NCBI GenBank assembly: GCA_021106755.1
Contig: JAIOTM010000364.1
Location: 1 to 20,198, forward strand
DNA length: 20,198 bases
From: Candidatus Cloacimonadota bacterium
GTDB lineage: Bacteria > Cloacimonadota > Cloacimonadia > Cloacimonadales > JAIOQZ01
Direction: 5' to 3'
The notes below the pieces were generated by a model that saw nothing but the letters and a program-made list of their open reading frames with translations, was not told the DNA's origin and did not search any database. The number at the start of each line of letters is the position of its first letter. Position 1 is the stretch's first letter. The translations under genes were made by a program, and so were the position numbers. This document shows positions 3,231 to 5,406 of the stretch, in pieces.

Positions 3231-4478
3231 TTATTCAGACTCCTGAATGAAGGCTTCGAAGCGTTTACAGGCTACTTTATCCATTTCAGCTATCATTTTC
3301 ACGCCGGAATCAAGATAAGATTTATCGGCTATGTAGGCTTCGTTGTGGACTCGTGAAGCCACATCCTGCTTATCCCAGGGAATAAATAACTCTACTTTCC
3401 GTGTATCGAAAAGCTCTTCATCTAATCGATTCAACAGGTGTTCCATGAAATCCCCGTACAGAGCGGAAAGCGCGATGCTGTCTGTATATATTTCTTCTAA
3501 AACAGCGGCGGGATATTCTGATTTATCGAGCTTATTTAACACATGCAGACGGTGTATATCTCCCGCGTCAATTTCCTGAAGAACGTTTTCCACCGTTTCG
3601 ATTTGCCGCTGATGATTCGGGTCGGCGATGTCTGTAACATGAAGTAGTAAATCGCTGTCAACCGTATCCTTGAGCGTTGCCCGGAACGAAGCTACTAACT
3701 CGTGGGGCAGATTAGCAATGAATCCGATTGTATCGGATAGCACTACCTGTCGCCCTTTGGGGGTTGTAATTCGTCGGGAACGGGATTCCAGAGTGGCAAA
3801 CAATTGATTTTTCACCAGTGAGTCTGCATTGGTTAACTGGTTGATCAAGGTTGATTTACCCGCATTCGTGTAACCTACAAGGCAAACTTTGGGGATAGAA
3901 CTACGCCGTTTTGAACGTGTATCATGGCGGACGGCAATGTGTTTCAATTCTTCCGAAACACGAACTATTTCTGCCGATATTCGCCGTCGATCAACTTCGA
4001 GTTGCGTTTCGCCCATTCCGCGACCAGCTGATGCCGTACCACCGCTACTTGATGAAGTTTTCCCAAAGTGAGACCAGAGTTTACGCAGGCGGGGCAACTG
4101 ATATTGCAACTCTGCCAGCTTAACCTGCAAGCGCGACTCTTTTGTTCCCGCGTGCTGATGGAAGATTTCAAGGATAATTTCGGTTCTGTCCGCTACTTCA
4201 ATCTCGAATCGTTTGCGGATATTGCGAGCCTGCGAGGGCGACAACTCGTTATCGAAAACGAGCAGTCCGATTTCCTCTTCCCGCATTTTTTCGGCGATTT
4301 CTTCCATTAATCCCTTGCCCGCATACGTTGCGGAATCTGGGTGTTTACGCTTCTGAATATATCGGGCTACTGGCTTAACGCCAGTTGTAAGAACAAGTTG
4401 CTCTAACTCATCGAGCGAGAGTTCGGCGGCTTTATTATCTGTTTCCAGATTTATACCTAATATTATTGCTTTTTTCAT
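3231..4478 (-). CDS. hflX: GTPase HflX
   Basis: This 415-residue protein is a ribosome-associated GTPase that splits stalled or damaged 70S ribosomes by binding near the peptidyl-transferase centre; some homologues give resistance to ribosome-targeting antibiotics. Residues 1-190 form the HflX N-terminal domain, including YAGKGLMEE, FDNELSPSQ, VADRTEIILEIF and the glycine-rich loop before GRGMGETQLEVDRR. The G domain has G1 GYTNAGKST (202-210), G2-region LFATL (226-230), G3 DTIGF (249-253), G4 NKLD (315-318) and G5 SAL (338-340). Length is at the usual size for the family. ATG at 4478 has TAAGGAG about 6 nt upstream. Upstream lies a leader with a tiny ORF, alternative hairpins and an intrinsic terminator (4514-4720), so expression is probably attenuation-controlled. 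Confidence 0.95.
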   Translation of the reverse strand: MKKAIILGINLETDNKAAELSLDELEQLVLTTGVKPVARYIQKRKHPDSATYAGKGLMEEIAEKMREEEIGLLVFDNELSPSQARNIRKRFEIEVADRTEIILEIFHQHAGTKESRLQVKLAELQYQLPRLRKLWSHFGKTSSSSGGTASAGRGMGETQLEVDRRRISAEIVRVSEELKHIAVRHDTRSKRRSSIPKVCLVGYTNAGKSTLINQLTNADSLVKNQLFATLESRSRRITTPKGRQVVLSDTIGFIANLPHELVASFRATLKDTVDSDLLLHVTDIADPNHQRQIETVENVLQEIDAGDIHRLHVLNKLDKSEYPAAVLEEIYTDSIALSALYGDFMEHLLNRLDEELFDTRKVELFIPWDKQDVASRVHNEAYIADKSYLDSGVKMIAEMDKVACKRFEAFIQESE

Positions 4479-4480
4479 AC

Positions 4481-4490
4481 AATCTCCTTA
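4481..4490 (-). promoter_or_regulatory. hflX ribosome binding site
   Basis: Minus-strand TAAGGAGATT ends 2 nt before the hflX ATG, with the AAGGAG core about 6 nt upstream. The U-rich stretch at 4560-4554 (UCUCUUU) could pair with AAGGAGA at 4489-4483 using one G-U pair. The leader could therefore affect translation as well as termination; this is inference. Confidence 0.6.
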
Positions 4491-4513
4491 TCTGTATTCC
4501 TCTTGACCAGTCG

Positions 4514-4547
4514 AAAAAAAGCCTGCGGAATTGGTCTCGCAGGCTTT
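4514..4547 (-). terminator. Intrinsic terminator (attenuator) in the hflX leader
   Basis: On the minus strand AAAGCCTGCG pairs perfectly with CGCAGGCTTT (10 bp) around a 10-nt loop and runs into seven T. It is a textbook Rho-independent terminator. It stands 35 bp upstream of hflX with no full-length gene before it, so its natural role is premature termination of the hflX transcript. Its loop carries GAGACC (4538-4533), which can instead pair with GGTCTC (4562-4557) upstream, a possible antiterminator. Confidence 0.85.
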
Positions 4548-4551
4548 ATAT

Positions 4552-4633
4552 AAAAAGAGACCGGTCCCGTCCGTGATGATGTTGTAGGCAGACCGATCTC
4601 AAAAATTATTGAAAGAGTCGATCGGCATCTACC
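4552..4633 (-). promoter_or_regulatory. Mutually exclusive hairpins of the hflX leader
   Basis: Reading the minus strand, segment 1 is GGTAGATGCCGATC (4633-4620, including the end of the leader ORF). Segment 2 is GAGATCGGTCTGCC (4600-4587), segment 3 is GACCGGTCTC (4566-4557) and segment 4 is GAGACC (4538-4533). 1:2 makes 12 pairs with a 2-nt bulge; 2:3 makes 10 continuous pairs with one G-U and is followed by TTTTT; 3:4 makes 6 pairs. Each segment can pair with its neighbour on either side, as in transcription attenuators. Confidence 0.7.
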
Positions 4634-4658
4634 AACGTAAGCGAAGCTTGTTGATCAT
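4629..4658 (-). CDS. Nine-residue leader peptide MINKLRLRW upstream of hflX
   Basis: The minus-strand ORF reads ATG-ATC-AAC-AAG-CTT-CGC-TTA-CGT-TGG-TAG. The SD AAAGGAG ends 8 nt before this ATG, as strong as the SDs of neighbouring genes; a nearer ATG at 4666 abuts the SD and stops after three codons. The peptide contains K4-L5-R6 and R6-L7-R8. Established knowledge: Arg/Lys-X-Arg/Lys ('+X+') tripeptides arrest macrolide-bound ribosomes, as in the ErmD leader peptide with its R-L-R. The stop codon lies in the first arm of the leader hairpins, the geometry expected for a ribosome-sensing attenuator. Alternatives are a Trp- or Arg-sensing leader, or an incidental mini-ORF. I infer a regulatory role and no function for the peptide itself. 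Confidence 0.7.
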   Translation of the reverse strand: MINKLRLRW

Positions 4659-4687
4659 GATGTCATCTCCTTTTTGCATATTTACTG

Positions 4688-4716
4688 CATGATTGATATG
4701 GTGGGATATGTGTCAA
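4688..4716 (-). promoter_or_regulatory. Possible promoter for the hflX leader
   Basis: Minus-strand TTGACA at 4716-4711 is a perfect -35 hexamer, 53 nt before the leader-peptide ATG. At 17-nt spacing the -10 would be ATCATG (4693-4688), a poor match, so only the -35 is convincing. Confidence 0.4.
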
Positions 4717-4753
4717 TGAAAATATTTGTCAGCAATTTTTCTGATGTCTGAAC

Positions 4754-4784
4754 CTTGATTTACTTGATTATCTTGATTTCTTGA
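4754..4784. repeat. Four phased CTTGA(TT) repeats in the divergent promoter region
   Basis: CTTGATT occurs at 4754-4760, 4763-4769 and 4772-4778, with CTTGA at 4780-4784, a period of 9, 9 and 8 bp. They lie between the divergent hflX leader and the lipoprotein-mfd transcripts and could be a protein-binding array or simple slippage. Confidence 0.5.
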
Positions 4785-4865
4785 AAGACAACAGGTGTCG
4801 GGCAAACCTTCATTCAGTCATTGCGATAGCGACAGCTTTAAACCGGATAATCTCCCATAATTCAT

Positions 4866-4887
4866 TTGACACCCTATCTGTTATAAT
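4866..4887 (+). promoter_or_regulatory. Possible promoter of the lipoprotein-mfd operon
   Basis: TTGACA (4866-4871) and TATAAT (4882-4887) are both perfect consensus hexamers, but only 10 bp apart. They cannot be one standard sigma-70 promoter. TATAAT alone, 28 bp before the lipoprotein ATG, is the more likely functional element. Confidence 0.4.
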
Positions 4888-4914
4888 CATCATGCCATCT
4901 CAAAGGAGATAAAC

Positions 4915-5406
4915 ATGAAAACAAAATTAGGATTGATTTTACTCGTAGCTTTATTGTTTATAGCTTGTGTTCCAAAAGAGGCGGCTGAGACTCAGGCTGT
5001 TGAGGATGATTCGCAAGCAGTAACCGAGCATCCACGTGCGGTAGCGGATTCTCTGACAGCGGAAGAAAGCGTTGCGGCTCTTGCTGCGGCAGAAAACTGG
5101 TTGAAATTCGTTGATAACAAACAGTGGGACGAAAGCTGGGAAAACGCGGCAGTAATAATTCAGAATCATGTGCCGAAAGAGCAGTGGAGTTCGAAGATGG
5201 TAGAAGCATTTACTCCTTTTGGCGATTGTGTCTCGCGGGAATTTCTAACATCTGTCTATAAAACGGAATTGCCGGGTGCCCCATTTGGCAAATATCTCAT
5301 AATACGTTATCGTTGCGAGTACAGTTCCAAAGCTAATGTAATTGAAACCGTTACTCCTATGTTTGAAAGCGGAGAGTGGAAAGTTAGCGGTTATTATATC
5401 AGATAG
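4915..5406 (+). CDS. DUF4019-family putative lipoprotein
   Basis: This 163-residue protein has a K-charged N-terminus, a hydrophobic run LGLILLVALLFIA and then C18, read as a type II signal peptide with lipobox LFIAC; Phe at -3 is less common but tolerated. Residues 20-50 form an acidic, Ala-rich linker. Residues 55-163 match DUF4019: a helix with W and D, DESWENAA, the SREF segment, T-x-LPGAP-x-G-(K/E)-Y, and the ending ETVTP...W(K/R)VSGYYIR. The family's function is unknown; members are usually exported small domains. AAAGGAG lies 7 nt before the ATG. mfd begins 12 nt after its stop, so they probably share a transcript, though I see no functional link. Confidence 0.88.
   Translation: MKTKLGLILLVALLFIACVPKEAAETQAVEDDSQAVTEHPRAVADSLTAEESVAALAAAENWLKFVDNKQWDESWENAAVIIQNHVPKEQWSSKMVEAFTPFGDCVSREFLTSVYKTELPGAPFGKYLIIRYRCEYSSKANVIETVTPMFESGEWKVSGYYIR

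Follow-up and report, generated by a model that had tools for sequence, protein, structure and literature searches.

At one locus of an uncultured bacterium of the phylum Cloacimonadota, the gene for the ribosome-splitting GTPase HflX follows a nine-codon ORF and a terminator. The locus lies in a stretch of 20,198 nucleotides (contig JAIOTM010000364.1, positions 1 to 20,198; here called the window), and it raises the question of whether the ORF is translated as a sensor that decides if hflX is transcribed. We conclude, with a probability of roughly 0.7, that hflX in the window is under a ribosome-sensing uORF transcription attenuator, and ribosome-targeting drugs plausibly induce it. The computed basis consists of the parts of the leader, their recurrence, alternative pairings and a resistance-like neighbourhood in relatives; translation of the mini-ORF, arrest, the inducer and the direction of the switch are inferred.

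The hflX Locus and Its Leader

The window HflX scored 281 bits against chain 8vkw_4, 250 against 8a57_D and 239 against 5ady_6 in phmmer searches, and the closest other protein found was 51% identical. The genome carrying the window (G000) has two hflX copies, the window gene in clade A and a clade B copy on G000:C454. These clades are from a tree made of Cloacimonadota copies (Listeria sequences are not among its rows), which splits the hflX genes of the phylum into clade A (25 rows, support 100/99) and clade B (8 rows, 100/100). The window gene starts with an ATG at position 4478 (minus strand), and the 436 nt of intergenic region ahead of it are shared with a divergent DUF4019 gene. The latter (window 4915-5406) encodes a lipoprotein-like N terminus and lies just before mfd.

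The initial annotation had described a nine-codon ORF with a good Shine-Dalgarno sequence (SD) ahead of hflX, flanked by a TTGACA box upstream and an intrinsic terminator downstream, and this agrees exactly with the sequence; the K-L-R and R-L-R tripeptides that it reported in MINKLRLRW were likewise borne out. The codons are ATG ATC AAC AAG CTT CGC TTA CGT TGG TAG (4658-4629, minus strand). Four downstream segments can be paired in alternative ways (Table 1). The 2:3 hairpin could act as a weak terminator on its own, and segment 4 together with segment 3 is a possible candidate antiterminator, as judged from a perfect pairing of 6 bp.

Table 1. Coordinates of hflX and of the parts of its leader in the window.
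Feature	Coordinates	Strand	Description and basis
Putative promoter of the hflX leader	4689..4716	-	TTGACA 4716-4711, spacer 16, AATCAT 4694-4689; consensus match
SD of the mini-ORF	4667..4672	-	AAGGAG; sequence
Leader mini-ORF	4629..4658	-	MINKLRLRW and stop; K-L-R residues 4-6, R-L-R residues 6-8
Segment 1	4620..4633	-	GGTAG (ORF end including the stop) and GCCGATC from 2 nt past the stop; pairs with segment 2
Segment 2	4587..4600	-	GAGATCGGTCTGCC; pairs with segment 1 or segment 3
Segment 3	4557..4572	-	GGACGGGACCGGTCTC, then TTTTTATAT; pairs with segment 2
Segment 4	4533..4538	-	GAGACC; lies largely within the loop of the terminator and could pair with GGTCTC of segment 3
Intrinsic terminator	4514..4547	-	AAAGCCTGCG, 10 nt, CGCAGGCTTT, then T7; hairpin in sequence and folding
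SD of hflX	4484..4489	-	AAGGAG; sequence
hflX, 415 aa, clade A	3231..4478	-	TIGR03156, 395 bits against a cut-off of 217

The putative promoter has a weak -10 box (AATCAT, 4/6 of the consensus), and a promoter scan of positions 4300-5000 returned 2 sites against a shuffle mean of 2.0, i.e. no excess. The terminator is absent from the promoter/terminator scan because the latter admits loops of 3-8 only. In an Rfam search of the window and six leader loci, only a tRNA exceeded the threshold, and the leaders gave sub-threshold matches only. Segment 3 with its U-run (TCTCTTTTT, 4552-4560) matches the mini-ORF SD by complementarity (4665-4673), and in part also that of hflX (4484-4489), so that a translational layer is possible.

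Recurrence of the Mini-ORF in the Phylum

The window region alone gives little reason to believe in the mini-ORF, as an equally good one was present in 4.3% of dinucleotide shuffles. We therefore rely on the relatives. A protein search of 124 phylum genomes yielded a clade A set of 69 hflX genes (above about 315 bits), whose upstream regions were examined for mini-ORFs with an ATG start and an SD match of at least 6 bases. One gene begins at a contig end and yields nothing (G003). According to the script, 55 of the other 68 lie less than 200 nt from the next upstream ORF, and 13 have longer gaps. Eleven of these 13 were tested; the two exceptions are G025, in which the ORF of the exporter extends into hflX, and G098 (201 nt). 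Based on shuffles, one would expect 0.23 regions with an SD mini-ORF among the 11. In fact, eight were observed, or 8/12 if G098, a miss, is included. Spurious ORFs shorten the script gaps of at least two more genes outside the tested set (G015, 500 nt, with a GTG-start leader, and G079, 254 nt).

The eight regions span four families (f1, f2, f8 and f9) and contain two same-genus pairs (G012/G018 and G009/G020). The mini-ORF of G033 belongs to another leader class, so that seven of the eight are of the window's kind; two of these seven (G012 and G018) are without a clear terminator. The evidence for the mini-ORF is thus weak from the window alone and strong because of the relatives, and chance is an unlikely explanation for it.

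As a control, 61 upstream regions of at least 200 nt were collected from the same genomes by simple script gene calling (20 stretches of G000, G002, G009, G020 and G101, plus the window). Only four contained a mini-ORF, all of them hflX leaders (G000, G002, G020 and G101), against none of the 57 other regions in this sample. Leaders do exist outside the sample (for example, at the ABC exporter of G000:C5), and the true background is therefore not zero.

Most clade A hflX genes do not have such a leader. This applies foremost to family f10, where no ATG mini-ORF of at least 4 codons with an SD match of at least 6 bases was found at the hflX genes of 46 genomes, the long upstream regions of G010, G021 and G044 included. 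Among the hflX loci of named records, a mini-ORF was present in 1 of 26, which has the leader of G002, and in none of the 25 from records titled other than Cloacimonadota. A DNA search of the 124 genomes with the window leader found no convincing homologue. The match in G045 (E 3.1e-4) was the start of an ordinary gene and at chance level over 124 genomes, and the second-best match (G011, 8.4e-4) was at chance level as well.

Leaders of Exporter Operons in Family f8

In family f8, leaders with this arrangement stand in front of ABC-exporter operons, and ABC-F, GNAT and hflX genes are present in some of these operons as well. An exporter-type ABC transporter gene was found upstream of clade A hflX (hflX-A) in 7 of 18 f8 genomes (G015, G019, G025, G029, G031, G097 and G098), the distance being several hundred bases in two cases. 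ABC-F genes lie upstream of hflX-A in G091, G092 and G093, all three above the cut-off of a ribosomal-protection-like model, and one gene further up in G095. GNAT genes are present upstream in G095 and G099. No f8 exporter reaches the cut-off of a named NCBIfam model, and we therefore regard them as putative drug exporters only.

An SD mini-ORF and a terminator are also found ahead of the first exporter gene in f8 (the exporter leader scan covered 30 of 49 genomes with an exporter homologue). Three of these mini-ORFs encode R-L-R peptides (MINFTGRLRNN in G097, MNNFTGRLRNN in G031 and MMNFTVRLRNN in G019), and in all three operons hflX follows the exporters. A fourth R-L-R leader (G096) has a peptide identical to that of G031, a genome of the same genus, and the contig ends there.

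An RNA covariance model (R1) spanning segment 2 to the terminator was trained on 11 exporter leaders (alignment A3). It found 27 rows in the phylum at E <1e-3, all in f8, and an SD mini-ORF starts 90-140 nt upstream in 26 of them, 15 of these 26 outside the training set. The remaining row (G097:C29, E 1.1e-4) is a false positive, an ordinary terminator located where a gene ends. No mini-ORF was seen at the weak rows in G081, G007, G121 and G067 (E >1e-3). The first long ORF behind the 26 leaders is an exporter in 23 cases, hflX in G101 and another ORF in G091, with a contig end in G096. In seven genomes (G104, G015, G092, G025, G097, G031 and G019), hflX-A follows the exporter genes and shares contig and strand with them, and in G101 it comes directly after the leader; in the remaining genomes, hflX-A was either located on a different contig or not detected. 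The G101 hflX leader was not used for training and was recovered at E 7.6e-8.

R1 had no match in G000 at E 0.1 or better. Since there is also no convincing DNA homologue, the window leader is an architectural relative only. It has the same order of parts: an SD mini-ORF, segment 1 not more than 6 nt past the stop, segments 2 and 3, and a terminator.

Alternative Pairings of the Leader RNA

Segment 2 can form either of two helices. In the window, the 1:2 and 2:3 duplexes have energies of -17.0 and -20.1 kcal/mol, and none of 100 shuffles was as good. The test looks for a stretch that pairs with both a post-stop segment and a downstream one, and scores the weaker duplex against shuffles. Across 19 leaders, with related rows and with the boundary of G002 set by eye, no shuffle out of 100 was as good in 17 leaders, and one was in G033 and G083.

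Covariation supports both helices in f8. In an alignment of 24 leaders (A4), 99% of cells were paired in 1:2, with double changes in 5 of 8 pairs, and 97% in 2:3 and the terminator, where 11 of 21 pairs were changed on both sides. In each case, 0/500 shuffles were as high on four of five measures, and 1/500 on the number of pair types. One set of segment 2 bases thus serves two helices, a hallmark of attenuators. Segment 1 begins 3-6 nt past the stop in 24 leaders and 2-6 nt past it in five hflX leaders (29 measured), which ties the switch to the ribosome reaching the stop codon.

The antiterminator is not supported in the same way, as 83% of cells in the relatives were paired in 3:4 and covariation did not go beyond shuffles (99/500 as high). 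Equilibrium folding of the window leader with ribosome masks left the terminator in place in every ribosome position tried. In 18 leaders, pairing of the terminator 5' arm hardly followed the ribosome, except in G020.

Leader Peptides

The peptide is not consistent among stand-alone hflX leaders. In addition to MINKLRLRW of the window, these encode MINLSITAIVKVRSN in G002, MNSILIRHL and MNNILNTQK in f9, MFNINTI and MFIIYN in f2, and MINTMKGRNTKVAIT in G101. The sequence varies between families. Arg/Lys-X-Arg/Lys is present in three of the seven, the window's included, and is thereby ruled out as their common feature. Conservation of Lys/Arg-X-Arg in the mini-ORF, proposed as a check in the initial annotation, thus does not extend across families because the peptide differs among them. 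MINKLRLRW is moreover so basic that the tripeptide alone is weak evidence in the window. The two f2 leaders (L012 and L015) have an SD mini-ORF before hflX and no clear terminator behind it; regulation there may be at the level of translation.

A second peptide class, R-x-P-x-G (for example MINIFKNRVPQGTSA), is found ahead of ABC exporters in one Cloacimonadota family (L223-L248). Of 26 f8 leaders, four belong to the R-L-R class, and two (G080 and G101) were excluded from the codon table because both motifs are absent. In the remaining 20, aligned from the stop, Arg is present at -9 in 18 peptides, and Pro at -7 and Gly at -5 in 19 each, with all three in 17; they are all from one family, and several are near-identical. 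Codons at these positions vary synonymously (AGA/CGG, CCA/CCG/CCT, GGC/GGT), and neighbouring positions vary freely. The synonymous changes point to selection on the peptide. To our knowledge, an R-x-P-x-G arrest motif has so far not been described. R-L-R occupies -6 to -4 from the stop in four leaders (three of one genus), as does K-V-R in G002, and lies one codon further on in the window.

Other leader classes were also seen. Longer leaders of 32-35 codons precede ABC exporters in f1, f3, f4 and f13 (L219 at about 1430-1590; L215, L192-L196, L214 and L216). Most of them have a CGTCCG-like stretch near the ORF end that is complementary to the terminator 5' arm, and several of these stretches could pair with the SD side as well. 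The G000:C5 exporter leader is of such another class: codons 26-28 of its 33-codon ORF pair with the terminator 5' arm (0/300 shuffles as good). For the same type of pairing in G001, G003, G004 and five f13 genomes, 2 to 27 of 300 shuffles were as good, the arms being picked by eye in 7 of the 9 cases. A second conserved f8 leader (L152-L159) has an AAGGAGG-type SD, encodes a peptide like MTEFTKRFS followed by the stop, and has its stop codon spanned by a hairpin (TTCAGC..TAGCTGAA) with changes on both sides in G099a and G103. It precedes hflX, GNAT, kinase-like or other genes, sometimes behind an ABC exporter, a position that resembles the place of MsrDL in the mefA/msrD operon. A dispersed hairpin repeat (CCGGTTCC..GGGAACCGG; query 97-146 of L005:1221-1390) occurs in many places in the f8 genomes.

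Possible Mechanism and Alternative Explanations

RNA polymerase would first make a leader RNA with the nine-codon ORF. A ribosome at a stop codon covers about 11 nt downstream, so ribosomes that run freely to the stop would cover most of segment 1 and leave segment 2 free for segment 3; with 2:3 paired, transcription would end at the terminator and hflX would not be reached. Arrest or failure of leader translation would shift the equilibrium of the 1:2 and 2:3 helices, the terminator would be bypassed (perhaps because segment 3 pairs with segment 4, which lies in the terminator loop), and HflX would be made. The likeliest inducers would be ribosome-targeting drugs, macrolide- or lincosamide-like ones acting via R-L-R. 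In the f8 leaders, a ribosome arrested at codon -5 would leave segment 1 free. In the window, one arrested at Leu7 would shield GGTAG and reach just into GCCGATC, and with arrest at Leu5 GCCGATC would stay accessible. Because a ribosome arrested by R-L-R would cover the GGTAG part in the window, unlike in the relatives, it is uncertain in which direction the switch works there. By analogy, bypass on arrest appears likelier because known cases behave in this way.

The peptide itself might be irrelevant. The mini-ORF would then sense translation in general rather than a drug, and any drop in initiation or elongation would uncover segment 1. The stand-alone hflX leaders argue for this, as they keep an SD and a short ORF and not the peptide, two of the seven peptides have only 6-7 residues and no basic motif, and the stop-proximal segment 1 is kept in all five hflX leaders measured. 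The f8 exporter leaders argue against it: R-x-P-x-G keeps a constant spacing to the stop, with synonymous changes in its codons, and R-L-R is kept in four leaders, both of which speak for selection on the peptide. We consider such a general sensor unlikely.

Very improbable, in our judgement, is a constitutive terminator or an element that acts by structure only (a thermosensor or a small RNA), with an incidental mini-ORF. The terminator is indeed stable in every computed state, but the SD mini-ORF recurs in several families at a fixed distance to segment 1. Even less credence is given to an amino-acid starvation attenuator, in which Arg, Leu or Trp codons (CGC, TTA, CGT, TGG) would stall the ribosome when charged tRNA is short. 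Trp-type attenuators have an architecture that resembles the window leader, and 4 of its 9 codons are for Arg or Leu and one is for Trp. However, leaders in other families show no abundance of these residues, and hflX encodes a ribosome-rescue factor and is not a biosynthetic gene.

Relation to Known Leaders

Attenuation of hflX by a uORF is already known in kind. Listeria monocytogenes hflXr (lmo0762) has an R-L-R uORF attenuator, rli80, whose induction by drugs was established by genetics (PMC6310831). The window shares with it the presence of two hflX copies, one of them behind a short R-L-R uORF and an intrinsic terminator. The alternative RNA structures of rli80 have a predicted counterpart in the 1:2 and 2:3 pairings of the window, which may act on the terminator. 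The Listeria peptide has 14 residues and is from Firmicutes, whereas the window peptide has nine and is from Cloacimonadota; induction by lincomycin and erythromycin was shown for Listeria hflXr (PMC6310831) and is a plausible prediction for the window leader. The uORFC-6-1 motif, a uORF with a conserved Arg-Leu-Arg before hflX that is predominantly from Bacillales, resembles the window leader by its description (PMC8632094). The novelty claimed in the initial annotation was therefore too strong, as R-L-R uORFs ahead of hflX had been published from Listeria (PMC6310831) and Bacillales (PMC8632094). Compared to known hflX attenuators, segment 1 of the window lies mainly behind the ORF rather than inside it. 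We found no uORF on hflX outside Firmicutes, and no case from Cloacimonadota, in the open-licence PubMed Central literature. What is new is that the case comes from a Gram-negative-type phylum, that exporter operons are linked to related leaders, and that R-x-P-x-G peptides occur among these.

MefA is an exporter. MsrD is an ABC-F protein, and responses to drugs were measured for the mefA/msrD and ErmDL leaders (PMC10314930). ErmDL (MTHSMRLR; MTHSMRLRFPTLNQ) and MefAL (MTASMRLR) have R-L-R at residues 6-8 (PMC10314930), as does MINKLRLRW. The mefA/msrD operon has one attenuator at its head (MefAL) and a second inside (MsrDL), like some f8 operons; mefA/msrD operons are streptococcal, and hflX is not named in them in the text available (PMC10314930). 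RAPP-type arrest peptides, in which Pro comes two residues after Arg as it does in R-x-P-x-G, are thought to regulate protein-localization genes (PMC10951233), whereas the R-x-P-x-G leaders head ABC-exporter genes.

Together, the above observations partly uphold the leader-peptide attenuator with R-L-R that had been proposed for hflX: recurrence, pairings and resistance-like relatives (ABC-F, ABC exporter, GNAT) favour it, and the peptide is not conserved among the stand-alone leaders. Beyond the window, we see about even odds that Cloacimonadota control a resistance regulon of ABC exporter, ABC-F, GNAT and HflX genes by attenuators that sense ribosomes; the regulon would form one operon in one family and be split in others, with hflX having its own leader. 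At least two arrest-type peptides would serve it, R-L-R and R-x-P-x-G, the latter halting the ribosome just short of the RNA switch, and the window would be a stand-alone R-L-R member in which a stalled ribosome calls its own rescue factor. If this is true, drug-inducible leader-peptide attenuation of ribosome rescue would extend beyond Firmicutes to a deep Gram-negative-type phylum, and would coordinate efflux, ribosome protection and ribosome splitting. R-x-P-x-G would be a new arrest motif, testable in cell-free systems, and its peptides would offer a route to the natural drugs that these uncultured bacteria meet.
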